Source: Chloroflexota bacterium (GTDB lineage Bacteria; Chloroflexota; Chloroflexia; Chloroflexales; Roseiflexaceae). From it: 64,000 bases of DNA. The stretch is taken from contig JAGWYG010000010.1 in the NCBI GenBank assembly GCA_018969485.1, forward strand, positions 1 through 64,000, read 5' to 3'. Below the pieces are notes generated by a model that did not search any database, had not been told where the DNA came from, and saw only the letters and a list, made by a program, of their open reading frames with translations. Position numbers and translations under genes: made by a program. This document shows positions 5,553 to 33,583 of this stretch, in pieces; position 1 is the stretch's first letter; every line of letters begins with the position of its first letter.

Positions 5553-5592
5553 GGTGCGACGGAAACGCGATCCGCCACAGGGAGAGATGCTC

Positions 5593-6873
5593 ATGGCTAC
5601 GTTCAGCCGGCGCCAGGCGTTGCGCCTCGCCGCAACCGGCGGCCTCGGTGGCCTGCTCGGCGCGTGCAGCCTGCCCACGCTGGCCACGCCGCCGACGCCG
5701 ACTGCCGCGACCCCGACGACGGTCGTCGTCTGGAACTGGCTTGATGATGCGCTGACGGGCCTGGTCGCCGAGTTCGAGCGATCGCATCCACTGGTGCGGG
5801 TGCGTCTCGAGCGCGTCGGGTACCAGCAGGCGTACCGCCAGTTTGTCAGCGCGCTTCAGGCCGGCACCGGCGCGCCCGATGTGTTCATCACCGACCGCAC
5901 GATGCTGGGCATGCTGCGCGAGCAGGCGGGGCTCGCCGATCTGGCGGCAGCACCGTTCGACGGCGCCGGGCTGCGCGAGTCGTTCGTGCCCTGGGCCTGG
6001 CAGGCGACCGGATTCGCCGGCCGCCAGGTGGCGCTGCCGTGGGCGATCGGTGTCGGCACCGCATGGTATCGTGCCGATGTCTTCGCGCGCGCGGGCCTAC
6101 CCGCTGACCCGGCGGAGCTCCAGGCACAGGTGCGCAGCTGGGATGACTGGCTGGCGCTGGATGAGGCGCTGCAGCGCGCGTTGCCCGACCACCGCCTGGT
6201 GGCCGAATCGCGCCGGCTGTTCGCGGTGGTGGCGGCACAGCAGGGCGGTGGCTGGCTCACCGGCGACCGACTCGATCTGGCGCGACGTGCGTTGCCGGCT
6301 GCCGAGTTCGTCGCCGGCCTGCAGCGCCGGGGCGTACCGGCCGAGTTGCGCCGCGACGAGATCGGCCCGTCGCTGGTGACAGGGACTGCTGCAGGGTTCG
6401 TCGATGCCGCCTGGAACCTGCTGCTGCTACAGCAGAATGTGCCGACGACGGCGGGCGCGTGGCGCATGATCCGGCCGCCGGGTGGCGATTTCAGCGTCTC
6501 CGCGCTGGCGTTGCTCATTCCAGAGCAGTCGCTGGTGCAAGACGCGGCGTGGTCGCTGGTGCGCGCGCTCTGCGCCACGGCCGAGCTACAGAACCTGGCG
6601 CTGCAGGGTGCGGGGGTGCTGCCGGCGTTCATGCCAGCATGGAGCGATCCGCTCTACGATCGCCCGGTGGGCTTCTTCGGCGACCAGCCGGCGTTCCGCC
6701 TGCTCAGCGAGGCGGCGCAGGCACAGCCGGAGGTGGTGCTGAGCCGCTATGATGCGGCGATCGAAGCGGCGCTCGACAACGTGGCCGGCAGCGTGGCGCG
6801 CGGCAGCGTCGAGCCGCTGCCGGCGATCGAAGCCGCGGAGCAGGCGCTGCGCCGCCAGTACCCCGAGCTGTAA
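5593..6873 (+). CDS. ABC transporter solute-binding lipoprotein (sugar type)
   Basis: Extracellular substrate-binding component of an ABC importer, 426 aa. It starts with SRRQALRLAATGG, a twin-arginine-like signal, then the lipobox LLGAC, so it should be lipid-anchored outside the membrane. A short TPTPTAATPTT spacer leads into a family-1 (MalE/UgpB-like) fold: VVVWNW near the mature N-terminus, then FERSHPLVRVRLERVGY, PDVFITDR and LPWAIGVGTAWYRADVF. The ATG at 5593 is preferred because GGGAGAG (5580-5586) is well spaced; an ATG six bases earlier is possible. No permease or ATPase gene is adjacent, so the partner transporter must be elsewhere. The ligand cannot be predicted from sequence, though the nearby catabolic operon makes a carbohydrate plausible. 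Confidence 0.85.
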   Translation: MATFSRRQALRLAATGGLGGLLGACSLPTLATPPTPTAATPTTVVVWNWLDDALTGLVAEFERSHPLVRVRLERVGYQQAYRQFVSALQAGTGAPDVFITDRTMLGMLREQAGLADLAAAPFDGAGLRESFVPWAWQATGFAGRQVALPWAIGVGTAWYRADVFARAGLPADPAELQAQVRSWDDWLALDEALQRALPDHRLVAESRRLFAVVAAQQGGGWLTGDRLDLARRALPAAEFVAGLQRRGVPAELRRDEIGPSLVTGTAAGFVDAAWNLLLLQQNVPTTAGAWRMIRPPGGDFSVSALALLIPEQSLVQDAAWSLVRALCATAELQNLALQGAGVLPAFMPAWSDPLYDRPVGFFGDQPAFRLLSEAAQAQPEVVLSRYDAAIEAALDNVAGSVARGSVEPLPAIEAAEQALRRQYPEL

Positions 6874-7127: not shown

Positions 7128-8339
7128 ATGCACAGGCGCTGGATACTCGGGTTGATCGTGGCAGGCGTGATCGCCGTCCCGGCGGCGCACGCCGCCTCCA
7201 GCCGCGGCGGCGAGCGGGTCATCATCGGTGCCGACGAGGTTGTCGCGGATGATCTGGTGATCGCGGCGAGCGAGCTGGTGATCGATGGCCGCATCGAGGG
7301 CGACCTGATCGCTGCGGCCGAGACGATCACCATCAATGGCGTGGTGACCGGTGATGTCATCGCGGCAGCGAACCGCATCACCATCGCCGGAGTGGTCGAG
7401 GATGACGTTCGCCTGGCGGCGGGCGATCTGACGTTGCAGGCCGAGGCCGGCGTCGGTGACGACATGATCGGCGCGGCCGGCACGGTGCTGATCGTGCCGG
7501 CGAGCCGGGTCGGTGGTGATCTGGCGGTCGCCGGCGGCACCGTGACGGTGCGCGGTGCCGTGGCGCGCCGCGCCGACGTGGCCAGCCAGCAACTGGTGCT
7601 CGGGGGCCCGGTCGGCGAGGCCGTCGCAGTCTACGCCGATGACATCGTGGTCGAAACAGCCGCCCGCATCGGCGGAATGCTGACGGCGCACTCGCCGGCC
7701 CCGCCATCGGTGGCTGACGGCGCACAGCTAGGCGGGCTGACGCACATCGTCACCGAGCGCGCAGACGCCGGGGAGCACGCGGCGCCGCCGGACGGCGGCG
7801 CGCTCGAGCCGCTGTTCGCATTGCTGCGGCAACTGGTGACGCTCCTGCTGGTGGGTGCCGTGCTGGTGTGGCTGCTGCCGGTGCGGCTGGCACGACTGGC
7901 CGACGGCGTGGTGCAGCAGCCCGGCCCAACATTGCTGGCCGGTGCGCTGGCCAGTGCGGCGCTGGTGCTCGGCGGATCCATGCTGCTGCTCGTGACCATC
8001 ATCGGCGGCGTGGTATTTGGCATGCTGACGCTCGGCGATCTGGCAGGCGCGATTGTGGCTACCGGCAGCGTGGCGCTGGCCGGTGTGATCGTGGCCGGCA
8101 TCATCGGCGGCGGCCTGGTGGCGCCGGTGATCGTCGGCTATGGCATGGGGCGAAGCCTGCTCGCGCGCCTGCGACCGGCGTGGCTGGATCAGCGGCTGGC
8201 GCCGCTTGCGCTCGGCGTGCTGCTGGTCTCATCGCTGCTCGCCATCCCGTGGGTCGGCGGGCTGATCGCGCTGCTGGTGCTGGCGCTCGCCCTGGGCGTG
8301 CTGTGGCGCGAATGGCGCGGCGAGTCGCCGGCTGCGTAG
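7128..8339 (+). CDS. Secreted/membrane-anchored polymer-forming (bactofilin-like) protein
   Basis: 403-aa protein starting after GAGGAGGT. Residues 1-24 form a Sec signal (ILGLIVAGVIAVPAAHA). Residues 30-200 contain short hydrophobic beta-helix rungs typical of polymer-forming cytoskeletal domains (VIIGADEVVADDLVIAA, VIDGRIEGDLIAAAETI, ITINGVVTGDVIAAANRI). The C-terminal half (about 225-395) has a predicted membrane region of five or more helices rich in Leu, Val and Gly. Canonical bactofilins are short and cytosolic, so a signal peptide plus polytopic membrane domain suggests an envelope version with the rungs outside the membrane. It is monocistronic and convergent with the catabolic operon. 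The 254 bp upstream (6874-7127) hold nothing I can support. Confidence 0.75.
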   Translation: MHRRWILGLIVAGVIAVPAAHAASSRGGERVIIGADEVVADDLVIAASELVIDGRIEGDLIAAAETITINGVVTGDVIAAANRITIAGVVEDDVRLAAGDLTLQAEAGVGDDMIGAAGTVLIVPASRVGGDLAVAGGTVTVRGAVARRADVASQQLVLGGPVGEAVAVYADDIVVETAARIGGMLTAHSPAPPSVADGAQLGGLTHIVTERADAGEHAAPPDGGALEPLFALLRQLVTLLLVGAVLVWLLPVRLARLADGVVQQPGPTLLAGALASAALVLGGSMLLLVTIIGGVVFGMLTLGDLAGAIVATGSVALAGVIVAGIIGGGLVAPVIVGYGMGRSLLARLRPAWLDQRLAPLALGVLLVSSLLAIPWVGGLIALLVLALALGVLWREWRGESPAA

Positions 8340-8359
8340 CTCTGGCGCCACGCGCAGCC

Positions 8360-8380
8360 GGGGCACGCTGTGCGTACCCC
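8360..8380. terminator. Hairpin between convergent genes
   Basis: GGGGCACGC-TGT-GCGTACCCC, nine-base arms with one mismatch and a three-base loop. It is placed between convergent stop codons at 8339 and 8405, so it may end transcription from both sides. No T-tract. Confidence 0.5.
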
Positions 8381-8404
8381 GACGGGTCGCGGTGACGCGC
8401 GGCC

Positions 8405-9898
8405 TCAGACGAACTGCAGCGCGTAGACGTCGGCATCGTGCAGCACCAGCCGCAGCCGCAGCGGCTGGCCCGCCAGGGCATCGAGGCGCGCGCCGCCGTG
8501 CCACTGCACCGTGCGGGCGATGTCGTCGCCGAACAGCGGCGGGCAGTCCTCCAGCCGATACCCGGGCAGCGGCGTACCGTCGGGCTGCTGCAGTTCGACC
8601 TGCACGCCGCCCGCCGCCGACGTGGCCAGGTTCAGCTGCAGATGCGCCCCGGCGAACACCAGCGGATGGCTCACCAGTTCGCCGCCCGCCGCGCCGGCAT
8701 AGGCCGACACGAAGCCATCGGTGCGCAGCGTGTAGCGCCGCAGGTGCGCCCCCGGATGCCGATAGTGCTCGATCGCATAGAACGACAGTTCGTGTGGCGC
8801 CGTCGGCAGCATGCCACTGCCCAGATACATGTTGCGGTCGGTCCAGTTCTCGGGATCGCTGCCCGGCCGCAGGAACGCCTCGTGAAAGCGGCGCTGCCAC
8901 TGCACGCCGTCGCGGCTGCTCATGAACACCGTGTCGGAGATGCCGTTGCCCTCCCATTCGGCGAACCGCCGCCGGCTCGAGACGAAGCGCTTGGGAAACA
9001 TCAGGCGGATGTGGGGGGCCCGGAAGTAGGGGATCGCCCCGTTCTTGTAGAGATGCTCCGTCGGCGCATCGCCCATGTCGATGAAGGCAAACTCCGACCA
9101 GTGGCGGAAATCGGGCGAGGTGCAGCGGCGGATGGCGCGGACGCCCGGCGGCGTCCAGCCGCGGGCGTAGACGACGTACTCACCGAGCTCACTGTCCCAG
9201 AACGCCAGGTTGTGGCTATCAAACATCGCCATCGGGTCCGGCGGCGCGACGATCAGCGGGTCAGGGTCCATCGCACGCCAGCGCAGGCCATCGGGCGACA
9301 CGAAGCCGCGCAGCTCGGCGCGATGCGGCCAGGGCAGCCGATCGAGCAGCGATGTCAGGTCACCGTCGCCGAGCTCGGCCGGCAGCGGCTGGCCCCAGGC
9401 CGGCAGATCCTCCGGCCGCAGGGCGGTCAGCCCCGGCGTGCGTCGCGGGCCGACGCCGATCGCCTTGTAGCGTTCGGCCGGGTCGACGGCCGGATTGTCG
9501 TCGCGGAACACGCTCACCGCACGGGCATCGCTGCCGGTGAGCACAATGTTGTTGGCGCGCGAGCCAGCATGCTCGACCAGCCCCAACTCGGGGCGGTGCC
9601 ACGCGATGCCGTCGTCGCTCTCGGCGTAGCAGGTATAGATGCGCGCATACAGCTCGGCGCCGCTCAGCCCGTCGGTGGATTCGTGCCAGCCGCGGTACCA
9701 CAGCCGGAAGCGGCCGGCGTCGTTCATCACGACCTGATCATAGCTGTACTGCCCTTCCCAGGGCTGGTCGAAGCGTAGCGCCACCTCGCGCCGGACGGGA
9801 TGGTGCAGGCGTAGCTGCGCGCCGGCGAACCTGTCGATCAGCCAGTCATCGAGCAGCGGCTCGAGGCGCGAACCGATCGTGCGGACAGGAGCGGTCAC
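8405..9898 (-). CDS. GH32/GH43-like beta-propeller glycosidase-like protein, paralogue 1 (497 aa)
   Basis: Last gene of the seven-gene operon. It starts with GTG, overlapping the upstream amidohydrolase stop (GTGA). The repeated propeller blades show SxDGxxWxxP-type turns: ESDDGIAWHRPELGL, SPDGLRWRAMDPDP and SRDGVQWQRRF. The GSRANNIVL motif is shared with the paralogue at 10701. A C-terminal beta-sandwich-like segment carries TPLPGYRLEDC and VQWHGGARLDALAGQPLRLR, known to me from GH32-like proteins of Planctomycetes and similar bacteria. There is no signal peptide, so it is probably cytosolic. Catalytic residues are not assigned with confidence, so it may bind sugars or act on small glycosides. 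Confidence 0.75.
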   Translation of the reverse strand: MTAPVRTIGSRLEPLLDDWLIDRFAGAQLRLHHPVRREVALRFDQPWEGQYSYDQVVMNDAGRFRLWYRGWHESTDGLSGAELYARIYTCYAESDDGIAWHRPELGLVEHAGSRANNIVLTGSDARAVSVFRDDNPAVDPAERYKAIGVGPRRTPGLTALRPEDLPAWGQPLPAELGDGDLTSLLDRLPWPHRAELRGFVSPDGLRWRAMDPDPLIVAPPDPMAMFDSHNLAFWDSELGEYVVYARGWTPPGVRAIRRCTSPDFRHWSEFAFIDMGDAPTEHLYKNGAIPYFRAPHIRLMFPKRFVSSRRRFAEWEGNGISDTVFMSSRDGVQWQRRFHEAFLRPGSDPENWTDRNMYLGSGMLPTAPHELSFYAIEHYRHPGAHLRRYTLRTDGFVSAYAGAAGGELVSHPLVFAGAHLQLNLATSAAGGVQVELQQPDGTPLPGYRLEDCPPLFGDDIARTVQWHGGARLDALAGQPLRLRLVLHDADVYALQFV

Positions 9899-10701
9899 GA
9901 CAGACCTCCCTCATCGATACGGGCGTGCTGTCGCAGCAGCGCCTCGGCGGTGCCATGCAGGATCTGGCGGCGGGCCACATCGTCGATCTCGGCGCCATCG
10001 ATCCGGCTGCGCTGCGCCGATGTGGCGTAGAGCGGCGTGTCGGTGCCGAACAGCATGCGCGCCGCACCGATCTGGCCCACCGCCCATTCGATCAGGCCGG
10101 AATACATCGATGACGCGGAGGAGGTGTCGACGTACAGGTTGCCGGCGCCGGCGCGCTGGATCGCATAGACCTGGCGCGTCGGATTGCCGTCGGCGCTGTT
10201 GCCGAGGTGCGCCAGGATCAACGACATCGCCGGATACTGGTCGGCGAATGCGACGAAATCCTCGGGGTAGCTCCCCGGATCGCCGCTGTGGGTCAGCACC
10301 AGCGCGCGGCGCGCGGCGGCGAAGGCGAAGATCGCCGCACCGTGCTGGCTGATCTCGTACTCGTGGGCATGCGGGTGGATCTTGATGCCGACGCAGCGCG
10401 GATGCGCCAGCATGGCATCGGCCTGGGCGAAGCTCGCCGGCACACGTGGGTCGATGACGACCCAGAACCGCACCTCATCGTGATCCTCCGCGGCGCGACA
10501 TGCGTCCTCATTGCCGCGCAGCACGTCGCCGCGGTACGGGATCAGCGCACGGATCGCCGACACCAGCGTCAGCGTGACGCCCGCGGCCCGGGCGCGGCTG
10601 ATGACCGTATCGATCCCGCCGGTGAAGAACCGGTCCCGCAGGCTGAGGCCGCCGCGGTCGTAGTGGCCAAAATGGCCGTGAACGTCGATGGCGTGGATCA
10701 T
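9895..10701 (-). CDS. Amidohydrolase-2 family metal-dependent hydrolase
   Basis: 268-aa TIM-barrel hydrolase of the ACMSD/LigI-like amidohydrolase-2 group. The start at 10701 gives MIHAIDVHGHFGHYD, where HGH provides the first two metal ligands. Later ligands are in VLTHSGDPG, ILAHLGN and LFGTDTPLY (the final Asp). The family hydrolyses lactones or decarboxylates ring-cleavage products. Its start shares one base with the stop of the upstream propeller gene, and its stop overlaps the downstream GTG, so it is translationally coupled on both sides. Placement between two propeller paralogues suggests a later step, such as lactone opening, of the same substrate. Confidence 0.8.
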   Translation of the reverse strand: MIHAIDVHGHFGHYDRGGLSLRDRFFTGGIDTVISRARAAGVTLTLVSAIRALIPYRGDVLRGNEDACRAAEDHDEVRFWVVIDPRVPASFAQADAMLAHPRCVGIKIHPHAHEYEISQHGAAIFAFAAARRALVLTHSGDPGSYPEDFVAFADQYPAMSLILAHLGNSADGNPTRQVYAIQRAGAGNLYVDTSSASSMYSGLIEWAVGQIGAARMLFGTDTPLYATSAQRSRIDGAEIDDVARRQILHGTAEALLRQHARIDEGGLS

Positions 10702-12194
10702 CAGACAGACTCCCAGCTGTAGAGCGTACTCTGGCGCAATTCGAACCGGATGCCAACCGGGCGGCCGGCGAGCGCTGCCGGCGTGGCATCGCCGTGCCAG
10801 CGCACCAGCGTGTCCAATCCGTCGCACCCGATCGGCTGGCAGTCAGCGAGGTCGTAGCCAGGCAAGGGTTGCCCGGCGGCGTCGAGCAGCGCCACGCGCG
10901 TCGCACCACGGCTGGCGTCGAGATTCAGCCGCAGCGTCGCGCCGTGCCAGGGCTGCGGCGCGATCTCGAGCACGCCGGGCGTCGCGCCCGCCTGCCAGCC
11001 GACATAGCGCCCGCGCGGCAGATGCGCCACGCCGATGCCCGTCAGCATGTTCGGGCTGTTGATCGGCTCGGCGAAGCCGTGCGTATAGCTGCAGCCGTGG
11101 TAGTGGAACAGCAGATCGTCGCCGATGGTGATCGGGCGGTCACCGCTGTAGATGGTACCAGCCTCGAAGCTGCCGGCTGGCCCCAGCGGGATGAATGGCT
11201 CGCGCACCGGCAGGCGCTCCCAGCGCACGCCATCGTGGCTGAAGACCAGTTGCGGCGCGATCGGCCCGTCGTCCCAGCCACGCCCCAGCGGCGGTGCGCC
11301 GGTGCGGGTCACCATGAACATCCACAGCAGGCCGAGGTAATAGCCATCGTGGGGCCAGACGTGCATGCCGTAGAACTCGGCGCGCACGCCGCCGTGCTCG
11401 CGCGCCCAGGCATCGTCGGCATCGTCGGGATCAAGGACCGAGCGCGACTGGTCGAAGTGGACGCCATCCTCGCTGAAGGCCAACCCGAGGCAGCGGCGCG
11501 ACAGATCCCAGCCCGGTCGGCGCTTGTCGAGCTTGTGGTAGCTCACGTAGCAGCCGCGCTGGTCGTCCCAGAACACGGTATTGAAATCGCCGATCGCGAG
11601 CTGCTCGGCACCATCCTGCCACTGCCCCGCCAGCACCGGCGCGTCCTGGTGCGGCGTCCAGTTCAGGCCATCCGGCGAGTACGCCACATACCACCCGTTG
11701 CGCGGGTAATCCCTGACGCGGAAACCGACGGCGGCGAGCACCGGGTTATCGGCGCTCCAGTACTCGGGACCGACCCAGTAGTACAGCCGATAGCGTCGCG
11801 CCGGGTCGTGATCCGCCGGCGCACGCACCACCGATGCCTGATGCGCGTCCCAGTAGCCGGTCTGTAGCACGATGTTGTTGGCCCGGCTGCCCTGCCAGGT
11901 CTCGATCCCCAGCTCGGGCCGGGACCAGCGGATGGCGTCGTCGGAGAAGGCGGTACACAGCAGGACTTCGGCGGGATGTCCTTCGTACCACATCTGCCAG
12001 CGCGTGTCCGACGGATCGCGGCCGATGGCAGTGAACAGCTGCAGCAGCTGCCCCTCCCATGGCCGGTCGGCGACGAGCACCGGATTGGCCGGGTGTTTCG
12101 TCGGCTGCCGCTGCAGGATGTGCAGCAGGTGCTGCCGGGTGATGTGAGGCCGGGCATTGAACCACGACCAGCGGCGCGGCGGATGGGTCGTCAT
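10701..12194 (-). CDS. GH32/GH43-like beta-propeller glycosidase-like protein, paralogue 2 (497 aa)
   Basis: The ATG at 12194 overlaps the Rieske gene stop (ATGA). The mature length is exactly that of the paralogue at 8405, and both share the order of motifs: WEGQ, SDDAIRWSRPELGIE, GSRANNIVL, SPDGLNW, SEDGVHF, SHDGVRWERLP, and the C-terminal QPLPGYDLADC and VRWHGDATPAALAGRPVGIR. Identity outside the motifs is low, so the duplication is old and the specificities have probably diverged. No secretion signal is visible. A longer upstream open frame exists but lacks homology. Confidence 0.75.
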   Translation of the reverse strand: MTTHPPRRWSWFNARPHITRQHLLHILQRQPTKHPANPVLVADRPWEGQLLQLFTAIGRDPSDTRWQMWYEGHPAEVLLCTAFSDDAIRWSRPELGIETWQGSRANNIVLQTGYWDAHQASVVRAPADHDPARRYRLYYWVGPEYWSADNPVLAAVGFRVRDYPRNGWYVAYSPDGLNWTPHQDAPVLAGQWQDGAEQLAIGDFNTVFWDDQRGCYVSYHKLDKRRPGWDLSRRCLGLAFSEDGVHFDQSRSVLDPDDADDAWAREHGGVRAEFYGMHVWPHDGYYLGLLWMFMVTRTGAPPLGRGWDDGPIAPQLVFSHDGVRWERLPVREPFIPLGPAGSFEAGTIYSGDRPITIGDDLLFHYHGCSYTHGFAEPINSPNMLTGIGVAHLPRGRYVGWQAGATPGVLEIAPQPWHGATLRLNLDASRGATRVALLDAAGQPLPGYDLADCQPIGCDGLDTLVRWHGDATPAALAGRPVGIRFELRQSTLYSWESV

Positions 12195-13456
12195 CGCGGC
12201 TCCCGTATGCCGCTCGGCGCATCGGCGTCCGATTGTGCGGCCTGTCCGGCAGGCGCTGCCGGTGCGATCTGGCGCAGATACCAGGCGATCAGGTGCTCGA
12301 CCGAGGACTCGCTGCTGGCATAGGGGCCGGGCACGTACCGTCGCGAGGTCACGCCGCGCTGATTGTCCTCGCAGATCGTCGCGTCCTCGATGGCGGTGAC
12401 GCGCCACAGCCAGCTCACCGCCAGCGGGTCGTAGTCGTGCCCCGGGCGGGCATCGCGCTGCACCAGCCAGGTGAGCATCAGCTCGGTGTGGGTCGGATCC
12501 CGCGGCGTGAAGCGTGCGAGCATGGCGTGATCGCTGCAGGCCAGCAGCCAGTTGACCGGATAGCACTGCACGGCGGTGACCGCACCATCGTACCCGGTGA
12601 GCCGGCCGAGCAGCGGCGCGACCGGGCCGCCGCCCTCGCTCTGGGTCAGGTAGCCTGGCCGGATCGGCGTCCGCGCCAGGGTGTGAATGCTGTCCTCGGT
12701 CATGTCGACGCCGCCGGTCGGCCATCCGCTGGCCTGCGCCTGCGCATGCCACTCGGCGACGAACGCGGCGCGCTCACGGCTGGCGCGCGGGCTGTCGGGC
12801 GCGCGGCCGTACGACATCACCGAGCAGAACTCGGGGTGCGTGTGGCTGCAGTGGTAGCACTCGAAGAAGTTCTCGGCGACGACCTTCCAGTTGGCGGCGA
12901 CCAGATGGCGCTCGACGTGGGCCACGCGGGTCTCGGCGAGCTGATAGGGACCGAAGAAGCGCGCAATATCGCCGGCGATCTGCCCGAATGGCGGCGGATC
13001 GGCGGCAGCACATACGAAGATCAGCCCTTCGACGACCTGGACCTGCACCGGCTGCAGGCCGTACGCGCCGCGCTCGAACCCTTCGGGCATGTGGCGCGCC
13101 TGAATCAATGCACCGGTGTCGTCGTAGACCCAGGCGTGGTATGGGCAGACGAGGCGATGCGCCTGGCCGGCTTCGTCGCGGCAGATGCGCGAACCGCGGT
13201 GCCGGCAGACGTTGAAGAAGGCGCGGATGACGCCGTCGCTGCCGTGCAGCAGGATCAGCGACTCGTCGGCGAGTTGGTACAGCCGGTAGTCGCCCGGCTG
13301 GGCGATCTGGCTGATGTGGCCAGCGAACAGCCATTGCCGCATGAAGATGTGCTCGAGATCGCGCTCGAAGATCGCGGGATCCGTATAGAACGCACGCGGC
13401 AGGGTGAACCCGGTGCGGCGCTGTCCGATCAGCGCGGCGAGCGTGGCATCATCCAT
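12191..13456 (-). CDS. Rieske non-heme iron oxygenase, alpha subunit
   Basis: 421 aa, started from the ATG at 13456 behind GGGAGGT. The Rieske [2Fe-2S] ligands are C84 and H86 (NVCRHRGSRIC) and C104 and H107 (VCPYHAWVY). The mononuclear iron site is ENFFECYHCSHTHPEF (H202, H207), with a late acidic ligand probably in EDNQRGV. Such enzymes hydroxylate aromatic rings or oxidatively cleave C-N or O-methyl bonds, and this one resembles the CntA/GbcA-like and phthalate-type size class. No ferredoxin or reductase is encoded in the operon, so electrons must come from elsewhere. In a gene set of glycosidase-like and amidohydrolase proteins, oxidative demethylation or deamination of a decorated sugar is a reasonable inference. 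Confidence 0.9.
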   Translation of the reverse strand: MDDATLAALIGQRRTGFTLPRAFYTDPAIFERDLEHIFMRQWLFAGHISQIAQPGDYRLYQLADESLILLHGSDGVIRAFFNVCRHRGSRICRDEAGQAHRLVCPYHAWVYDDTGALIQARHMPEGFERGAYGLQPVQVQVVEGLIFVCAAADPPPFGQIAGDIARFFGPYQLAETRVAHVERHLVAANWKVVAENFFECYHCSHTHPEFCSVMSYGRAPDSPRASRERAAFVAEWHAQAQASGWPTGGVDMTEDSIHTLARTPIRPGYLTQSEGGGPVAPLLGRLTGYDGAVTAVQCYPVNWLLACSDHAMLARFTPRDPTHTELMLTWLVQRDARPGHDYDPLAVSWLWRVTAIEDATICEDNQRGVTSRRYVPGPYASSESSVEHLIAWYLRQIAPAAPAGQAAQSDADAPSGIREPR

Positions 13457-13603
13457 CAGGAACCTCCCTGGGCGTTCGTGAGTCGCGTCTGTCGTGTGGC
13501 ATCGCGTATTGCTCCCCATGGCGCTGGCGTCGCGGGCTGGCCGAAGATGGGCGCCGCGCCGCGCATCGGCCGTGCCGGCCAGCCCCCGCAGCACATGACG
13601 CGC

Positions 13604-14974
13604 TCAGGCATCGCGCCACAGCCCGGCCGCCTGGCCGCGCCACCAGGTGATCAGGTAGTGGCACGGCGCCTCGCTCGACAGCATGCATCCCATCCAGCGC
13701 ACCATCGGCCGCAGTTGCTGGCCGTCGAGGTCGATCATCCAGCGCAGCCGGCGACCGTCGGTGAGCTGCATGATGCGCTGCGCCCAGGCCAGCGCGGCGG
13801 CGCGGCGTTCCGGCAGCCGCGCGATCACCGGCAGCGCGGCGGTGAGCGTCCGGTAGAGCGAGTCGCTCCAGCGAACGTCGGAGTACCAGCCGAAGAACTC
13901 GCCCGGAAACGGCGGCGCATCGTTGCGGCGCAGACCAGTGGGGCGCCAGGTGCGCTGCACGACATCAATGTCGATCCAGTAATGCTGGTACCCAGCGTCG
14001 TCCATTCCCAACTGGGCGAACTCCCACCAGACCGTGAGCGTGTGCCGGAGGGCGGTCGCCTGCTCGTCGGCCGTGGCGCCGAAGAGCTCCGGCAGGATGC
14101 GGGCCAGCACGTCGGCGGCCTCGATCACGAATGCGGCGAGGCACACCCGCTCGAACTCCAGCACCTGCGTCCGGCCGGCGTCGTGCCAGTCGCCGAGGTA
14201 GGATCGATCGCGCCAGCGGCTCAGCGCGGCCAGGCGCAGCGCCTCGGCGCGATGCCGCTCGGCGCCGCTCACGCTCCAGGCCAGCGCCTGCGCCAGCACG
14301 TAGGTGGCATTGCAGTAGCTGTTGCTCAGGTTCCACGGTTTGCTGTCGACCGGATGGTGCAGATTCCAGATCTGGTAGTTGCGCTGCTGCAGGAAGTCGG
14401 CGATGTCGCACACCATCGCATCGATGACCTGGCGTGCGGACGGGCTGGCGAACGGCCGGTAGTGGTACAGGCCGAGCAAGGCGGCGTGGTACTGGTCGGG
14501 CGTCGAATGATCCTTCGGCACCTGGCCGTACGGCTTGCCGAGCCAGCCGGCACGGCCGCGCGCGACGCCATCATCGTACACCAGCCGCAATGCCGCCAGT
14601 GCGCGGGCGGCTTCCGTCAGCGCCTCGGGCGCGGCGGTGGCCGCGTACCGCGCCGCCTGGGCCTGCAGGTACAGCCCGGCCGAGTAGATCGAGTTCTCGA
14701 AGGTCATGCCTTCGTCGCGGGCAGCCGCGCTGGTGGCGCCACCGTCATCATACACGCCCTCGACGCTGTGGTCGCTGATGCCATGCGTGTCCGCCGGCCC
14801 CATTGGCCGCACGTGTTCCGGGCCGGTGATCAGCACCATCGAGTAGCACAGACCGTTCGGCGCGAACCATGCCCGCTGCAACAGGTGCTGCAGCCGCTGC
14901 GCCCGCTCCTCCGGCGGCAGCCCGGCCAGCCCGGGCAGGAACTCGAGCGCTGCTAGCGCGACATAATCAACCAC
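13604..14974 (-). CDS. Uncharacterised alpha-helical protein (alpha/alpha-barrel type)
   Basis: 456 aa with a GTG start at 14974 behind CGGGGGTGG. It is rich in Trp, Tyr and His, with aromatic-acidic motifs expected of an (alpha/alpha)n toroid active cleft: DTHGISDHSVEGVYDDG, FENSIYSAGLYLQ, KDHSTPDQYHAALLGLYHY, NLHHPVDSKPWNLSN and DIDVVQRTWRPTG. I do not recognise the family. Fold and context suggest a carbohydrate lyase, glycosidase or epimerase. It lies in the operon between an amidohydrolase (186-bp gap upstream) and the Rieske gene (147-bp gap). No signal peptide. Confidence 0.6.
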   Translation of the reverse strand: MVDYVALAALEFLPGLAGLPPEERAQRLQHLLQRAWFAPNGLCYSMVLITGPEHVRPMGPADTHGISDHSVEGVYDDGGATSAAARDEGMTFENSIYSAGLYLQAQAARYAATAAPEALTEAARALAALRLVYDDGVARGRAGWLGKPYGQVPKDHSTPDQYHAALLGLYHYRPFASPSARQVIDAMVCDIADFLQQRNYQIWNLHHPVDSKPWNLSNSYCNATYVLAQALAWSVSGAERHRAEALRLAALSRWRDRSYLGDWHDAGRTQVLEFERVCLAAFVIEAADVLARILPELFGATADEQATALRHTLTVWWEFAQLGMDDAGYQHYWIDIDVVQRTWRPTGLRRNDAPPFPGEFFGWYSDVRWSDSLYRTLTAALPVIARLPERRAAALAWAQRIMQLTDGRRLRWMIDLDGQQLRPMVRWMGCMLSSEAPCHYLITWWRGQAAGLWRDA

Positions 14975-15160
14975 GATCCACCCCCGAGTGTGCCAGGCAC
15001 GCCAGGCCGATCCCGTCGTGCGTGGCCGCGACCATCAATCGGAGCCGCCGTGCGTCAGCGATCAGCCGAAGCGGGCGAGCGTCGGTGCTCTACCGGCAGC
15101 GCTGACGCGGCCACAGCGACGGCCACGCCGGCAGCACGCACCGCCCGCCGGGCCACGCGG

Positions 15161-16465
15161 TCAGTACCACTCCCCGATGCGCCGTGCGCCGTGGCGCACC
15201 GGCTGCCGGGCATGGTGTGCCGCCTCCGCGAGCAGTTCGGCGGGATCGAGCCACACGCCGCCGCGCATCACCGCCAGGACCGCGCGGGTGGCGCGGATGT
15301 CGGCCAGCGGATCGCCACGCACCACCACCAGATCGGCCAACAACCCCGGCGCGATCGTCCCCACCCGCTGCCCCCAGCCGAGCGCATCAGCCGCCCGGTT
15401 GGTCGCCGCCGCCAATGCCTCGGCCGGCGTCATGCCACACTCCACGAGTTGCTCAAGTTCGTCGTGCAGACTGAACCCGGGCATCACCTGAACGAACGGC
15501 GTGTCGGTGCCGGCGACGATGCGCGCACCACGCTCGATCAGCAGCGAGCTCATGATCTGCAGGCCTGCCAGCGCCCGCACCCAGGTGTGGCGCCGTGCGG
15601 CCGGCATGCCGTACGGGTACTGCTCCTGCCACCAGCGCGCCACATCGGGCGGCACGAACGGTTGGTGCGGCCGGCAGCGCTGTGTCGGCTGGTCGTTCCG
15701 GCCAATCGCATGCCACACCACCCGGGTCAGCGTCAGCCAGGTGCCATGCTCGACGGCCAGGTGCACCAGCGGCGTCACGCGTTCCGGCGCCAGATCAGGC
15801 CACAGGTCGAGCCAGTGCACGCCGGCGGCACGCCGCTCGGGCCACAACGCCTCGGCAAAACCCGACAGATGCTCGATCTCATCGAGCCCGGCGCTGATCG
15901 CCTCGCGGGCATCAGCGTGGTTCTGCAGGTGTGCCAGCGTGAAGCGGCCATGGCGCTGCGCCTGATCCAGCGCCGCGAAGAAGCACGCCCGATCGAGACT
16001 GGCGTAGAGCTTGATCTGGTCGACGCCGGCGTCGACCAGCCGGTCCACGCAGTCGCGCGCTGCGGCCGGCGTGCGCACGATCTCGGCCATCGGCGTCCAG
16101 GAGAACGGCACACCCGGGCCATCGATGAGCGGCCCGCAGCAGCACAGCCGCGGGGCGCGCGCCAGCGGCGCGTTCCAGCGCGCGCGGCGCGCGAGCACCT
16201 CGTCGAGGGCACAGCCCGTGTCGCGGACGGTCGTCACGCCGTGGGCCAGAAAGAGCGGCGCCTGCCAGTCGTCGCTGTGGACGTGCGCATCGATCAGGCC
16301 AGGGATGATGGTGGCCCCATCAAACTCGCGACGCGCCAGCCCGGCGGGCAGGGTGGCTGCCGGACAGATCCCGACGATGCGGTCGTCGGCGACGGTCACG
16401 GCGTGCTGATGACGCACACCATCGGCAGTCAGGACGCTGCCGCACAGCGCTGTGGGCTCGCTCAC
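15161..16465 (-). CDS. Imidazolonepropionase-like amidohydrolase
   Basis: 434-aa metal-dependent amidohydrolase of the imidazolonepropionase/prolidase-like type. The HxH pair is in IPGLIDAHVHSDD. Further ligands are in FTLAHLQNHAD and DEIEHL, and the final Asp is in VAGTDTPFV. A GVTTVRDTG signature is present. The flanking small beta-sandwich is formed by the N-terminus and the C-terminal GTIAPGLLADLVVVRGDPL. It starts with GTG overlapping the stop of the alpha/beta hydrolase gene (GTGA). Family members cleave C-N bonds in cyclic amides, hydantoins or peptides; the exact substrate is unknown. Confidence 0.85.
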   Translation of the reverse strand: MSEPTALCGSVLTADGVRHQHAVTVADDRIVGICPAATLPAGLARREFDGATIIPGLIDAHVHSDDWQAPLFLAHGVTTVRDTGCALDEVLARRARWNAPLARAPRLCCCGPLIDGPGVPFSWTPMAEIVRTPAAARDCVDRLVDAGVDQIKLYASLDRACFFAALDQAQRHGRFTLAHLQNHADAREAISAGLDEIEHLSGFAEALWPERRAAGVHWLDLWPDLAPERVTPLVHLAVEHGTWLTLTRVVWHAIGRNDQPTQRCRPHQPFVPPDVARWWQEQYPYGMPAARRHTWVRALAGLQIMSSLLIERGARIVAGTDTPFVQVMPGFSLHDELEQLVECGMTPAEALAAATNRAADALGWGQRVGTIAPGLLADLVVVRGDPLADIRATRAVLAVMRGGVWLDPAELLAEAAHHARQPVRHGARRIGEWY

Positions 16466-17223
16466 GCGCTCCCTCCCGCGTCGATGTGCCCGATCAGGAA
16501 CCGTGCTCCGGCATGCCGCCAGCCGTCAGGCAATGCGTGATCAAACCCTTCGACCACATGGAGCCGCGCTGCGCTGTGCGCGAGACCGAGCGCCGCCTCG
16601 GCCTGCCAGAGCGCAGCGGCAAACGCCAGGCAGCGCTCCGTGCCAACGCGTCGGTCGGCAGCGCCGATGGCGATGAACACCGCCCGCCCCGCCAGTGCGG
16701 CCGCCTGTGGCACCAGATCGAGCGCGGCGGCGGCAGGCTGCTCCCTGATCGCCTCAAACTCGCGCAGGACGCGCCAGTCGATCACCGGCGCCAGCGCCGC
16801 GACGGCATCGATCGACGGCTCGCGCAGCGCCAGGCGCAGCCCGGCGTACGCGCCGCGCGACACACCACACAGGACCAGCGGTCCCGGCGGGAGCAGGCTC
16901 CGGCCATGCCCGATGCGCGCCAGCGCCCAGTCGCTCCAGGCGGCGAACGGGTCGTCGCCCCGTGCGACACGCCGCGCCAGCCCATCGATGCCGCTCGGGC
17001 CGCCGTCACACCAGTCACCATGACACGGCAGATCCAGGCTCATCACCGCCAGCCCCGCCGCTCGCGCGTGGTCGGCGGCGATGCGGTGTGGCCAGCCCGT
17101 CAGCGCGTCGGCCCGACTGCCGGCGAGCGTCACCAGCAGGCCACGGGCGGGTCCTCCGTCCGGCAGCAGCAGCGTCACCCCGCGATCTTCATCCGCTGCC
17201 GCCACTTCGTCACGCAGAGCCAT
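16462..17223 (-). CDS. Alpha/beta-hydrolase
   Basis: 253 aa from the second of two adjacent ATGs (17226 and 17223) behind GGAG. It is the first gene of the operon. The nucleophile elbow is LCGVSRGAYAG (Ser), and the catalytic His is in GFDHALPDGW near the C-terminus. An oxyanion-side motif is VTLAGSRAD, with SLDLPCHGDW before the nucleophile. It resembles dienelactone-hydrolase/prolyl-oligopeptidase-like esterases. A likely role is removal of an ester group from the operon substrate. Confidence 0.8.
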   Translation of the reverse strand: MALRDEVAAADEDRGVTLLLPDGGPARGLLVTLAGSRADALTGWPHRIAADHARAAGLAVMSLDLPCHGDWCDGGPSGIDGLARRVARGDDPFAAWSDWALARIGHGRSLLPPGPLVLCGVSRGAYAGLRLALREPSIDAVAALAPVIDWRVLREFEAIREQPAAAALDLVPQAAALAGRAVFIAIGAADRRVGTERCLAFAAALWQAEAALGLAHSAARLHVVEGFDHALPDGWRHAGARFLIGHIDAGGSA

Positions 17224-17250
17224 CATTACCACTCCGACGTCATCGTCGAT

Positions 17251-17261
17251 TGGTCTGACCA
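17251..17261. promoter_or_regulatory. Possible operator TGGTC-T-GACCA
   Basis: Perfect 5-bp inverted repeat just downstream of the predicted transcription start of the seven-gene operon, so it would lie in the 5' leader DNA. It is short enough to occur by chance. Confidence 0.25.
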
Positions 17262-17274
17262 CCCGACCACCACG

Positions 17275-17303
17275 ACTATAGCGAGAGCGAGACGATCTGT
17301 CAA
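17275..17303 (-). promoter_or_regulatory. Sigma-70-type promoter of the Rieske operon
   Basis: On the minus strand TTGACA (17303-17298), a 17-bp spacer and TATAGT (17280-17275). The predicted start is near 17268, about 45 bases before the first gene. Confidence 0.85.
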
Positions 17304-17914
17304 GAGAGGCGCCGGCCCACGCGGGCTACGTCAACATCACCTCCGGCGGGGGCCTGTCGGGGGTAGGTTTGTTGAATGACGCAGCGGGCCTGGCCAACTT
17401 CGGCGCCTGACGCCCGAGCCCCGGCCAGGCATCCCGCAACGCCAGGGCGCGTGCTTGCCGCATCAGAAGGCCGTATCCTGTGCCTCTCCGGACAAATTCA
17501 CCTACAGATGGAGATCATCGTGGGCGCCCCGTGCGGGATTGCCCGCACGCCGGGTCGACCCCTGCGGTCGCCCCCGACCATCGTGGGCAGCCGCACGGGA
17601 TTGCCCGCACGCCGGGGCGACCCCTGCGGTCGCCCGCGACGCCTGCCGCCCGAAGCCTGGCCGCGCATCCCGCAGCGTCTGAAACAGCGCTTCAAGCACG
17701 CTGACGGCGCCCTCCCAGCCCACGCAGGCGCACGTCAGCCGGCTGGCGGGAAGCGCCTGTCAGATGCACCGGATCGTGGCAGCGCGCCACGGCGTCCTCC
17801 TGCAGCGTGCGATGAGACGCTGTCACGCCGGCGCCGCATCCCACGGGCACAGGCGGTCGTCACGCTTCGCGCCACATCCGTGCGGTCTGGCAGGTGCGCG
17901 GGCGCGGGCGGGCA
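17304..17914. other. Non-coding spacer with repeats
   Basis: About 610 bp between two divergent promoters. The open frames here are GC-driven and have no recognisable protein character. It carries the 62-bp tandem repeat listed separately and imperfect copies of cgcctgacgcccgag / cgcctgccgcccgaag at about 17404 and 17641. No tRNA or known RNA was seen. Confidence 0.6.
17517..17640. repeat. Two tandem copies of a 62-bp GC-rich element
   Basis: Copies at 17517-17578 and 17579-17640 share gggattgcccgcacgccggg and cgacccctgcggtcgccc. Internal inverted repeats (gcggg..cccgc, cgacc..ggtcg) make them able to fold. They look like a REP/MITE-type dispersed element of the kind that litters large Chloroflexota genomes. 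Confidence 0.65.
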
Positions 17915-17943
17915 TTGACGAGCCCCGGTGCGGCTGGTACACT
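17915..17943 (+). promoter_or_regulatory. Sigma-70-type promoter of the YbjN-like gene
   Basis: TTGACG (17915-17920), a 17-bp spacer and TACACT (17938-17943) preceded by TGG. The start site would be near 17950, leaving a leader of about 205 nt. Confidence 0.75.
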
Positions 17944-18156
17944 GAATCGCACGATCAGGAGCGATCGTGTGCGCCTCCGGCACAGTCGGGGCGGGGTGGC
18001 GTCCATGCAGCGCGCAGGGTCCGTCATCCGCCCACGAAGCAGTTTGCCCCGGGCGACACCCAGCCGAGCGGCCGGCACGTTCTGCAGCCGGACTGCGGCC
18101 ACGCGGCTGGCCGATGGCCTTCGCCGTCATAGGCTGCGATGCACAGTGGAGGGGAT
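17944..18156 (+). other. Long 5' leader with hairpin
   Basis: Untranslated stretch between a strong promoter and the YbjN-like gene. It begins with cgcacgatc-agga-gcgatcgtgtgcg, which can form a near-perfect stem right at the 5' end. No known riboswitch consensus was recognised. Confidence 0.35.
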
Positions 18157-18585
18157 ATGGGCCTGGGATCGCTGTTCGGTGGGTACAACTTCCAGTCCAC
18201 CATTCGTGAGTACTGCCGCGCTGCCAGTTGGGAGATCGCCGATCTCGAGGACCAGAGCGCGCGCCTTGAGTTCCACATGGATTCGGGTCGGCAGCAAGTG
18301 GTGTTCATCACCCAGCGCGAGAAGCTGATCGAGTTTGCCGTGCCGAGCGTCATCAGCTTCGAGTCGGCCGACGACATCGACGCCGATATCGCCATTGAGC
18401 TGCTCGAGCGCAACTCCCGGCTCAACATCGGGTTCTGGTGTCTCGCGACGGTCGACGACGAATACACGTTCACCGCGATGTACAACATTGATCGCGATCA
18501 ACTCAACGACGAAGCATTCGCTCACATCGTCAACACGCTGATCAACGAGTGCGACCAGGTTGAGGGTGAGTACGACGAAGAGTAG
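18157..18585 (+). CDS. YbjN-like small acidic protein
   Basis: 142 aa from the ATG at 18157 behind GTGGAGGGG; an in-frame ATG at 18139 has no Shine-Dalgarno sequence. It has an alpha-beta-alpha pattern with acidic helices: SARLEFHMDSGRQQVVFIT, SADDIDADIAIELLERN, IGFWCLATVDDEYTF and DEAFAHIVNTLINECDQVE. This layout fits the YbjN / type-III-secretion-chaperone-like fold, found in many bacteria with no defined biochemical role. It is monocistronic, with its own promoter, a long leader and a terminator hairpin. Domain assignment is by pattern only. Confidence 0.55.
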   Translation: MGLGSLFGGYNFQSTIREYCRAASWEIADLEDQSARLEFHMDSGRQQVVFITQREKLIEFAVPSVISFESADDIDADIAIELLERNSRLNIGFWCLATVDDEYTFTAMYNIDRDQLNDEAFAHIVNTLINECDQVEGEYDEE

Positions 18586-18860: not shown

Positions 18861-19241
18861 ATGGAGCGCACCATCATCACCACCGACGCCGCGCCTGCCG
18901 CCATCGGGCCGTACTCCCAGGCTGTCGCGGTCGGTGATCTGATCTTCTGTTCCGGGCAGATCCCCCTGACGCCTGCCGGCGTGATGATCGACGATGACAT
19001 CGTCGCCCAGACCCACCAGGTGCTGCAGAACGTCCGTGGCCTGCTGGAAGCCGCCGGGAGCTCGCTGGGGCTGGTGATCAAGGCGACCGTCTTTCTCGCC
19101 GACATGGGGGACTTTGCGGCGATGAACTCGGTATACACCAACTACTTCCCGCAGTCGCCACCCGCGCGCTCGACCGTCCAGGTCGCCCGCCTGCCCCGCG
19201 ATGCCCGGGTCGAGATCGAAGTTGTCGCACTGCGCGGCTGA
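18861..19241 (+). CDS. ridA: RidA family enamine/imine deaminase
   Basis: 126 aa, the full family length. Hydrolyses reactive 2-aminoacrylate-type enamines/imines formed by PLP enzymes, as a trimer with active sites between subunits. Family signatures seen: AAPAAIGPYSQAV near the N-terminus, FCSGQIPLTPAG, the middle QVLQNVRGLLEAAG, and the substrate-carboxylate Arg in PPARSTVQVARLPRDARVEIEVVAL. The ATG at 18861 follows AAAGGA. A sugar isomerase-like gene starts 17 bp downstream, probably in the same transcript. Confidence 0.93.
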   Translation: MERTIITTDAAPAAIGPYSQAVAVGDLIFCSGQIPLTPAGVMIDDDIVAQTHQVLQNVRGLLEAAGSSLGLVIKATVFLADMGDFAAMNSVYTNYFPQSPPARSTVQVARLPRDARVEIEVVALRG

Positions 19242-19258
19242 GTGAGGCGGAGGTCGCG

Positions 19259-20107
19259 ATGTTTCGAAATCTGGCTCCCGGAGCGCTCGGCATCCATGCC
19301 GATCTCGCCGGCACGCTGGCGCTGGCGCGCGATGCCGGCTGGCAAGGCATCGATGTGCCGATCGACGAGGCGCTGACGCTGGCAGCGGCAGCATCGGCCG
19401 AGGATGTCGCCGCCCAGTTCGCCGAGGCGGGCATCCGAGCCGGTGGCTGGGGGCTGCCGCTCGACTGGCGCCAGCCCTACGATGCCGCCGCGCTCGACCG
19501 TCTCGCGGCGCAGGCGGCACTGGCTGCACGGCTCGGCAGCACGCGCGTCGCGACCTGGCTGCTGCCATACTCCGACGAGCGTCCGTTCCGGGCCAACGTC
19601 GCGTTCCACGTCGCGCAACTCCAGCCGATCGCCCGCACGCTGGAAGCCCATGGCTGCCGCCTGGCCCTCGAGTTCATCGGGCCCCGGACGATGCGCCAGA
19701 ATCAGCGCTACGGGTTCATCTACAGCCTCGAAGGGATGATGTGCCTGGCGCAGGCCATCGGGCCGAACGTCGGGCTGCTGCTCGATTGCTGGCACTGGTA
19801 CACATCGCTGGGCACGCTGGCCGATATCCGGGCGCTGGATGCAGCGGACATCGTGTATGTGCACGTCAACGACGCGCCGGCCGGAATCCCGGTCGAGGCA
19901 CAGCACGATCTGACGCGCCGCCTGCCGGGCGCGACCGGGGTGATCGATCTGACCGGGTTTCTCACCACGCTGACAGCGATTGGCTACGATGGCCCGGTGA
20001 CCCCCGAGCCGTTCGAGCGGCGGCTGCACGACCTTGACCCCGAGGCCGCGAGCCGCGAGGCCCACGCGGCGCTGCTGGGAGCCTGGCGCGCCGCCGGGCT
20101 GGACTGA
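19259..20107 (+). CDS. Sugar-phosphate isomerase/epimerase family protein (TIM barrel)
   Basis: 282 aa of the xylose-isomerase-like AP-endonuclease-2 superfamily. Metal ligands fit the classic order: Glu in LALEFIGPRT, Asp in LLLDCWHWYT, His in VYVHVNDAPAG and Glu in VTPEPFERR. Members are sugar epimerases, isomerases or myo-inosose dehydratases. Starts at 19259 behind GGCGGAGGT and follows ridA by 17 bp. A cytosolic role in sugar or inositol metabolism is likely; substrate not predicted. Confidence 0.82.
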   Translation: MFRNLAPGALGIHADLAGTLALARDAGWQGIDVPIDEALTLAAAASAEDVAAQFAEAGIRAGGWGLPLDWRQPYDAAALDRLAAQAALAARLGSTRVATWLLPYSDERPFRANVAFHVAQLQPIARTLEAHGCRLALEFIGPRTMRQNQRYGFIYSLEGMMCLAQAIGPNVGLLLDCWHWYTSLGTLADIRALDAADIVYVHVNDAPAGIPVEAQHDLTRRLPGATGVIDLTGFLTTLTAIGYDGPVTPEPFERRLHDLDPEAASREAHAALLGAWRAAGLD

Positions 20108-31739: not shown

Positions 31740-33583
31740 TCACTGCAGATCGACGTCGTAGGTCTCGTCGCCGTACTGCAGGCGGTAGATGGCGCTGCTG
31801 TACGCCGATGACGCGAATGATCCGGCCATGCGGGGATGCCCACCGACGGCGATCGGGCTGCCATCGAGCCGCAGGGGTGCATCCCAGCCCAGGCTGAGTT
31901 GGCCGACGCCGGGGGCTTCGTAGCAGATGCCGACGGCGTCATCCCAGGACAACCGGGCGGTGGCGATGCGTTCGCACCACGTGGCAAACGCGCCGTCGAC
32001 GGCGGCGCGACCCAACTGGCAGATCCAGCGATTGCGCCGCCCCGGTGCGATCAGTCCCTCGCCGCGCAAGGCACCGTCGCGTGTCCAGCGTGCCGGCTGG
32101 TGCGAGAACAGCGCCAGATAGCCGGCGCCGCGCCGGGCGAAGACCCATCCCGCCCGCTCGCGCACCTCATCGAATGCTGCGCGCCGTAGCACGGCGATCG
32201 TCCATGGCTGGAGTGCTTCCTGCGATGGCGCCGGAGAGGGCATGGCATTGCCGGCGGCTGCTGTTGGCACCACCGTCGGCGGGCCAGGCAGTGGCAGTTC
32301 GGGGATGTCGTACAGCGCGATCAGCACATTGCGGTACTGCACCGCCCGGGGAAACCGCCCGACCCAATACGTGCCGCTCTGGTCGTCGCCGGCACCACGA
32401 TGCATGCTGAAGACGACCGCCGATGGGCCGAGAGTCGCCTGCCAGATGTGCTGCTGAAATCCCGGCTTGCCCTTGCGGTAGTCCTGGGCACACGACAGCT
32501 GATAATCGGGCGTACGGAAGGTATAGGTGTCGGCCCGTGTCATCGAGGTGCGGTCGAGGTCACCATCATGCGGGATGCCGCGCCGGTCGAGTTCGGCGTA
32601 GGTTGCTGCGACCGCTTCGGCGTAGGGCCGGATGACGACGCTGAAGCGTTTCGACCGCAGCCGGTCGGCCAGCGCGATGGTCGCCGCCACCGTACGCCGT
32701 TCGGCGAACAGTCCCATGCCCCACAGCAGCATCATACCGTCAGGATCATCGGGATCAATGTGATGCACAGCGCGATCGTCGAGGCGCAGGCCATGGCACT
32801 CGCGATGCTCGAGTTCATCGGGGAACGCCTGGGCCATGCGTTCGACGATCATCGGCACGCGCCACCGCCGACTGGTCGCGAGGGCGCTTGCCGTCATGCT
32901 GTCAGGATCATGAAACACGCCCATCCCCCAGGCGATGTTCTGGGCCGCTGCCATGGGACTGGCGTGCCCATCGAGAATGTGGGCCGGGTATGATCGGCCG
33001 TGGGTCGTGCCGAAGGTGCCACGGAAGGAGTCGAGCGCCATACAGGCGAACATCACATCGAGCAACGCGGCAGCACGCCGCGCAACCTCGCCGTCGGCGG
33101 CGAAGTCGGCGAGGTTCAGCAGCGGCGTCATGTCTTCGTCGTAGTAAGTGTTCGAGTTCCACTCAGCGAAGCCGATGCGCGCCCGTAGGTCGATCCAGCG
33201 CAGGATGCGCCGTCGGGCGCGCTGCATGTGCTCGGCGCCCGTGAGTCCCGAATTGTCGAAGCGTCGCGTCGCAAACCGCTGGCCAGCGAGGTATTCGGCG
33301 CTGTGGAACATAATCTGGTGATGTTCCGACCAGTAACACATCATGTCGTCGTCGGGCTGGTCGATCCAGTACTTGAATCCAAGCAGCCCGGCGTCGACGG
33401 AATCGCGCACGGCGCGCGGTCGGGCGGTAGCCCGACGGCGAGCCGTGCGATCTGGGAGAAGAACCCGGTTCGGCCAGTGCCGGATGGTGCGGCGGCTGCC
33501 CACGCCAGAAATGCGGCGCGCCGCTCGGCATATGTCGAGCGTGGCAACTCCCAGTACTCATCAGCGGCGAATGTGTGATGCAT
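31740..33583 (-). pseudogene. Heparinase II/III-like protein, broken near the N-terminus
   Basis: The N-terminal part, MHHTFAADEYWELP through GFFSQIARLAVGLPPD, is read in one frame from the ATG at 33583. The rest, from AVRDSVDAGLLGFKYW to the stop at 31740, is in another, with the switch near 33395-33425. The family I recall has about 40 extra residues there, so a non-triplet deletion of roughly 100 bases rather than a single-base slip is likely. The remaining ~560 aa look intact: CYWSEHHQIMFHSAEYLAG, FDNSGLTGAEH, RIGFAEWNSNTYY, FRGTFGTTHGRSYPAH, and a beta-sandwich C-terminus. The (alpha/alpha) toroid plus beta-sandwich suggests a polysaccharide lyase or glycosidase. It could be a real pseudogene or an assembly error. 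Confidence 0.65.

Follow-up and report, generated by a model that had tools for sequence, protein, structure and literature searches.

The window analysed here, a stretch of 64,000 nucleotides from a Chloroflexota bacterium of the Roseiflexaceae, is contig C183 of a 4.02-Mb assembly that is 95.6% complete, with 4-5% of the genome missing. Seven intact open reading frames are located on its minus strand between positions 17226 and 8405. In the direction of transcription these encode an alpha/beta hydrolase (abH, 16462..17226, 254 amino acids), a subtype-I amidohydrolase resembling prolidases and carboxypeptidases (AH1, Amidohydro_1, 15161..16465, 434 amino acids), a helical protein that is tentatively an alpha/alpha-barrel carbohydrate enzyme (hel, 13604..14974, 456 amino acids), the alpha subunit of a Rieske oxygenase of group V type (12191..13456, 421 amino acids), a five-bladed, glycosidase-like propeller with a C-terminal beta-sandwich (prop2, 10701..12194, 497 amino acids), an Amidohydro_2 hydrolase as candidate lactonase (AH2, 9895..10701, 268 amino acids) and a second propeller of the same build (prop1, 8405..9898, 497 amino acids).

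A sigma-70-type promoter (17275..17303, minus strand), consisting of TTGACA at 17303-17298, a 17-bp spacer and TATAGT at 17280-17275, precedes abH and matches 11 of the 12 consensus positions. In a consensus scan of positions 7500-18500 it was the sole promoter-like match on the minus strand, and no internal promoter was detected within the gene set. Four of the six junctions overlap (abH/AH1, Rieske/prop2 and AH2/prop1 by 4 bases each, prop2/AH2 by 1 base), while gaps of 186 bp between AH1 and hel and of 147 bp between hel and the Rieske gene are weakly conserved. Thus, the seven reading frames, the promoter and the overlaps of 1-4 bases were all recovered as given in a preliminary description of this DNA. 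For abH an alternative GTG start is present at 17262; the ATG at 17226 is more likely the start, because it has an upstream GGAG and the same start is used in a relative of the same genus.

In this relative (G301), the genes of the set and both flanks are syntenic. One of its contigs (C33) has abH-AH1-hel-Rieske with 80-88% protein identity (abH 80%, AH1 88%, hel 86%) together with the upstream flank, and another (C216) carries AH2 (94% over the portion seen), prop1 (92%), a tandem copy of prop1 (74%; copies at L132:1845-4869) and the downstream flank; the position of prop2 coincides with the break between both contigs. In the five genes compared, to which the Rieske gene does not belong, substitutions were found mostly at third codon positions (differences at positions 1/2/3: hel 39/34/144; prop1 23/19/156), a pattern that indicates purifying selection on these five genes. 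The stretch from CTTGACA to an operator-like palindrome is nearly unchanged in G301, and the DNA further upstream has diverged.

This palindrome, TGGTCAGACCA (TGGTC-N-GACCA, 17251..17261, minus strand), covers approximately positions +7 to +17 relative to the likely transcript start, shortly past the -10 box, and is a putative site for a GntR/FCD regulator. The pattern occurs once in the 64-kb window and was absent from 100 shuffled versions. Seven copies were found in the 4.02-Mb genome, among them copies in the promoters of the operon on C183 and of gene clusters on contigs C123, C170 and C141, and in G301 the same four loci carry it. C123 and C170 also contain paralogues of prop1 and hel. 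At seven sites per 4.02 Mb, the chance of a match in a given 200-bp promoter is about 3.5e-4, and that of matches at two further named clusters about 1e-7. A fifth copy on C30, in front of a PhyH-type dioxygenase gene, is a possible site of the same regulon; the matches on C51 and C94 look accidental. Together, these findings suggest that the shared palindrome links four loci of the genome into one regulon or pathway, and synteny and shared operator led us to reject a chance cluster; to judge from the sequences, the seven genes are one conserved operon.

In G301 and in two members of the Roseiflexus-like family (G305, G317), a GntR/FCD gene lies divergently at the C170-type site, which is placed between this gene and the aldolase gene. 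In the genome under study an orthologue (96% identity) was found at the end of contig C21. GntR and FCD domains were detected in both the C21 orthologue and the gene at locus L156. From the divergent position in the three relatives, the GntR/FCD protein is the putative binder of the palindrome. The absence of a regulator and a transporter, which had been noted for the operon, holds only locally; the genes for both are found on other contigs, and the shared operator connects them with the operon.

The contents of the regulon, some of which were assigned via orthologues in G301, G305 and G317, extend well beyond the operon. C123 encodes propellers, a 2-hydroxyacid dehydrogenase, an Amidohydro_2 protein, GFO/IDH proteins, an ATP-binding cassette (ABC) importer (SBP_bac_5 and two BPD_transp_1 permeases), an MR/MLE protein and a BNR-like protein. 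C170 encodes an HpcH aldolase, an SDR, an MR/MLE dehydratase, a paralogue of hel, a 2-hydroxyacid dehydrogenase, a BNR protein, a class V aminotransferase, a propeller, a dehydrogenase of the flavin mononucleotide type, a GFO/IDH protein, a sarcosine-oxidase-like DAO protein and a DUF455 protein. On C141, genes for a GFO/IDH protein, a 2-hydroxyacid dehydrogenase, an HpcH aldolase, an M24 peptidase-like protein and a BhcC-like protein were identified. In total, the regulon holds aminotransferases of classes III and V; its MR/MLE protein is closest to galactonate/arabinonate dehydratases, its HpcH protein to HpaI/GarL and its DAO protein to N-methyltryptophan/sarcosine oxidases. In the relatives, an M19 dipeptidase gene follows the GntR gene. 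The seven genes cannot be regarded as a whole pathway, since the operator-defined regulon also comprises genes on other contigs for a transporter, aminotransferases, an amine oxidase and the GntR regulator.

The Rieske protein scored above the Pfam cut-offs for both PF00355 and PF00848. The ligands of the [2Fe-2S] cluster (C84-R-H86, C104-PY-H107) are present, and the iron ligands H202, H207 and D358 as well as the bridging E199, which was compared with E205 of CntA, are invariant in alignment A2. A cysteine pair, C200-x-x-C203, as found in some group V members, adjoins an iron ligand. Such a pair and the bridging glutamate are features of group V, whose members act on quaternary amines (PMC10952381, PMC7948474). 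The best relatives in the PDB were Stc2 (3vca/4qup) and 3n0q; among characterised proteins, Stc2 and GbcA gave the highest scores. At the position of Y203 of CntA the protein carries Phe197, an aromatic residue as in group Va (CntA, choline and OxyBAC enzymes), and phenylalanine also occurs in OxyBAC; it does not carry the asparagine of group Vb (GbcA/Stc2), and the motif ENNREC of Stc2 reads ENFFEC in this clade. YeaW of E. coli, the only group Va protein included, is however placed at a great distance in the tree. In this tree of 34 rows, a small sample picked by similarity to the query in a search whose pattern, AENFFEC, favoured that motif, the protein falls into a clade (97/94) of sequences from Roseiflexus-like bacteria, Acidobacteriota and Verrucomicrobia that is distinct from Stc2 and GbcA-like proteins. 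By its signatures, the protein is of group V type, but its clade is not that of Stc2/GbcA. Membership in the GbcA glycine betaine monooxygenases (NF058607) was rejected, as the score of 317.7 bits failed the cut-off of 670.

These relationships bear on a betaine-type reading, in which the operon serves quaternary-ammonium catabolism, a small betaine is demethylated by the Rieske enzyme, and propellers and amidohydrolases have a separate task. The closeness of Stc2 and GbcA and the group V motifs are in line with it, and relatives with 36-42% identity adjoin MttB-like genes, genes for amine-oxidase-like proteins dependent on flavin adenine dinucleotide, and betaine-type ABC genes. On the other hand, the GbcA score is less than half of what the model demands (318 vs 670 bits), the asparagine of group Vb is replaced by phenylalanine (PMC7948474), and the clade shared with Acidobacteriota and Verrucomicrobia is separate from Stc2/GbcA. 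Moreover, the genome has MttB-like, corrinoid and sarcosine-oxidase-like genes at another place, where no operator is present. We consider this reading unlikely.

The latter genes belong to a cluster at C200:1-15354 (L118), which encodes an IclR-type regulator, an MttB-like methyltransferase, dimethylglycine-dehydrogenase-like and sarcosine-oxidase-like proteins, a corrinoid protein, a RamA-like activase and a homocysteine-methyltransferase-like protein, assigned mostly by reading the sequences. It is likely a betaine demethylation system that operates without a Rieske enzyme, and because of its existence glycine betaine need not be the substrate of the Rieske enzyme.

No reductase for the Rieske enzyme had been seen in the operon, and this extends to the whole assembled genome, in which neither PF00970 nor PF00175 was found. 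PF00175 was also without a match in G301 and G317, and one match was obtained in G305. Fer2 matches in the genome belong mostly to other enzymes; a stand-alone ferredoxin encoded on C108 is a possible electron donor. A related Rieske gene on a Mesorhizobium plasmid (L125) lies beside genes for a PDR/VanB reductase, an amidohydrolase and a mandelate-racemase-like protein. In comparison with CntA, GbcA/BmoA and Stc2, the protein shares the Rieske and iron ligands, the bridging glutamate and the Cys-x-x-Cys pair, whereas it differs in the phenylalanine in place of the asparagine of Stc2/GbcA, in its separate clade, in the lack of a partner reductase, which was found neither close by nor in the rest of the genome, and in its neighbours, which are sugar-type hydrolases and dehydrogenases.

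A glycosidase-like fold of the propellers, as given in the preliminary description, was borne out for prop1. Its AlphaFold model (predicted local distance difference test, pLDDT, 85) gave 209 matches with E <= 0.001 in a Foldseek comparison with the PDB, the top ones being enzymes of glycoside hydrolase (GH) families GH43, GH32 and GH130 (E down to 2.8e-12), which share the five-bladed propeller; the C-terminal beta-sandwich is our reading of the secondary structure. Prop2 is 30% identical to prop1, and the profile of the family that includes it (A4) gave sequence matches to GH130 phosphorylases and to GH32 enzymes. Neither protein scored above the cut-off of any Pfam family, including GH32 and GH43, and four of 22 relatives matched GH32N weakly. 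Both propellers are predicted to be GH43/GH32/GH130-like glycosidases. For hel, neither a Pfam family over the cut-off nor a PDB sequence match was obtained. Its model, based on five sequences, reached a pLDDT of 58 with weak matches to epimerases, GH76 and GH9; no fold can be named from it, and these matches are weak hints only. The hel family is rare (3 of 400 Chloroflexota genomes). A plasmid search with prop1 returned one gene of an Isosphaeraceae plasmid, and the same search with hel returned none.

AH1 and AH2 are members of the amidohydrolase superfamily, with scores of 81 bits for PF01979 (cut-off 25) and 60 bits for PF04909 (cut-off 26) and the metal-ligand motifs HVH, IK and GTD in AH1 and HGH, THSG and GTD in AH2. 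AbH remained below the Pfam cut-offs and carries the motifs GVSRG, D and DH. As far as can be read from the motifs, the catalytic residues are intact in the Rieske protein, AH1, AH2 and abH.

Taken together, the operon may be one unit of a GntR/FCD-controlled regulon of at least four loci for the degradation of a glycoside that is methylated and probably bears an amine, the Rieske enzyme being the demethylase; we give this explanation about an even chance of being correct. We infer the following substrate and order of steps. The SBP_bac_5-type ABC system of C123 would take up the substrate, and the propellers, perhaps together with hel, would cut the glycosidic bond. Oxidative demethylation by the Rieske enzyme would then follow, a tertiary or quaternary amine being the most likely methyl carrier (a methyl ether is the alternative), and formaldehyde would be set free. 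Oxidation of the sugar could fall to GFO/IDH or SDR dehydrogenases and opening of the lactone to Amidohydro_2 or alpha/beta hydrolases, and the sugar acid could be split by the MR/MLE dehydratase and the HpcH/GarL-like aldolase, both encoded on C170. The nitrogen might be dealt with by the sarcosine-oxidase-like flavoenzyme and the aminotransferases. The GntR/FCD regulator probably represses the regulon until a carboxylate or sugar-acid intermediate occupies the FCD domain. The idea that a group is oxidatively removed from a modified sugar before hydrolysis had already been put forward; it fits the combination of Rieske, propeller and amidohydrolase genes and the dehydratase, HpcH aldolases and SDR of the regulon, and its substrate is deduced from these families.

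Several points weigh against this explanation. The substrate is known by inference only, and the fold of hel is uncertain. Family-specific cut-offs were reached neither for GbcA nor for the sugar-acid enzymes or any GH family; among the equivalogs of the non-phosphorylative sugar pathways, galactonate dehydratase scored 151 vs 311 bits and HpaI 128 vs 369. A canonical Rieske reductase was not found in the assembled genome. In the genome, 11 matches were obtained with the reversed control pattern, compared to seven with the operator pattern; because of this, the palindrome count is not enriched and is no evidence, and it is position and conservation that count. Finally, the peptidase-like and hydroxyaspartate-aldolase-like genes of C141 may point to an amino-acid conjugate, not a plain sugar.

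In such a case, the substrate would be an opine- or Amadori-like conjugate of a sugar and an amino acid, of which amidohydrolases and peptidases cut the amides, a flavin oxidase attacks the secondary amine and the Rieske enzyme removes an N- or O-methyl group. The SBP_bac_5 importer, the DAO protein, the aminotransferases of classes III and V and the several GFO/IDH proteins would suit this, as would the M24 and BhcC-like genes on C141 and the M19 dipeptidase gene behind the GntR gene. There is also a precedent in rhizopine, 3-O-methyl-scyllo-inosamine, whose catabolism by mocRABCDEF is proposed to involve a ferredoxin oxygenase, mocDEF (PMC10107442, citing Bahar 1998). As far as the moc system is described there, it likewise combines an oxygenase and GFO/IDH/MocA-type enzymes for a methylated amino-cyclitol in several transcription units under one regulator, which is MocR and not a GntR/FCD protein. 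The scans made gave no equivalog-level match to an opine enzyme, which speaks against such a conjugate. To our knowledge, glycosidase-fold propellers have no part in known opine pathways, and we know of none in the moc set. On balance, a conjugate of this kind appears improbable.

The preliminary description had named rare co-occurrence of the homologues in other genomes as grounds for regarding the genes as a chance cluster. Such co-occurrence was established inside the Roseiflexus-like family only, in G301, G305 and G317, and the complete set of seven was seen only within the genus of the window. The Rieske gene of G305 and G317 (64-67% identity) is part of C123/C170-type clusters; SBP_bac_5 importer genes directly follow it in G317 and come after prop1 in G305, in which the prop1 orthologue also overlaps the Rieske gene by 4 bp and abH is 50% identical to a gene of the Rieske cluster. 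This restriction and the recombination of components between clusters in G305 and G317 would be expected of a conserved but loosely tied gene set, that is, a lineage-specific array of broad-specificity enzymes without a single substrate, and two Acidobacteriota genomes (G424, G426) hold 122-149 propellers each. However, the tight overlaps, the conserved promoter and operator and the reuse of the operator at C123, C170 and C141 make a loose array very unlikely.

The expansion of the prop1 family, which has no Pfam name, is extreme in these Acidobacteriota. The nearness of Rieske and propeller genes there was about at chance level, and the propellers beside Rieske genes ranked in the middle by similarity to prop1; the respective loci (L080, L083) were therefore withdrawn as independent support. 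At the Rieske loci of Verrucomicrobia and Planctomycetota, no propeller of the prop1 family was found beside the Rieske gene. In a planctomycete (L085:8583-14165), a related Rieske gene (42% identity) overlaps a GH4 gene and lies ahead of pfkB, class II aldolase and SIS genes; this locus hints independently at sugar metabolism, its placement in the tree being weakly supported.

With regard to known pathways, the methylated glycoside explanation has a counterpart in marine Flavobacteriia, in which 6-O-methyl-D-galactose is demethylated by a cytochrome P450 with ferredoxin and ferredoxin reductase (PMC10033563). There, as would be the case here, an oxygenase demethylates inside a glycan-degrading gene set; the difference lies in the Rieske enzyme without a recognised donor and in a substrate that is deduced. 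Non-phosphorylative oxidative pathways for L-rhamnose and pentoses resemble the regulon in combining SDR, Amidohydro_2, MR/MLE dehydratase and HpcH aldolase, but here the dehydratase and aldolase are below the equivalog cut-offs, and the oxygenase, the amine enzymes and the propellers are additional. In the literature searched, no Rieske enzyme acting on methylated sugars was found.

The more far-reaching proposal is a regulon under GntR control by which a methylated (amino) sugar is degraded completely. Demethylation would be the work of a Rieske enzyme with a non-canonical donor, and not of a P450 or a corrinoid methyltransferase, and propellers of glycosidase fold for which Pfam has no name would take part. 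This proposal is put forward tentatively and is somewhat doubtful. If it is true, Rieske chemistry would reach beyond small betaines and aromatics into sugar catabolism, and a route for the recycling of methylated sugars would be indicated. Four unlinked clusters of an uncultured Roseiflexus-like bacterium would be joined into one testable pathway, and the short DNA site could be used to find the regulon in other genomes.

Apart from the operon, a minus-strand reading frame of 556 amino acids without a Pfam match was found at 31740-33410. Genes for a RidA-type imine deaminase and a xylose-isomerase-like TIM barrel protein (18861-20107) are located upstream of the operon and point away from it; they carry no operator and are kept in G301. 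Additionally, a lone SBP_bac_1 sugar-type binding protein without adjacent permeases is encoded at 5587-6873, and it lies near the operon in G301 as well.

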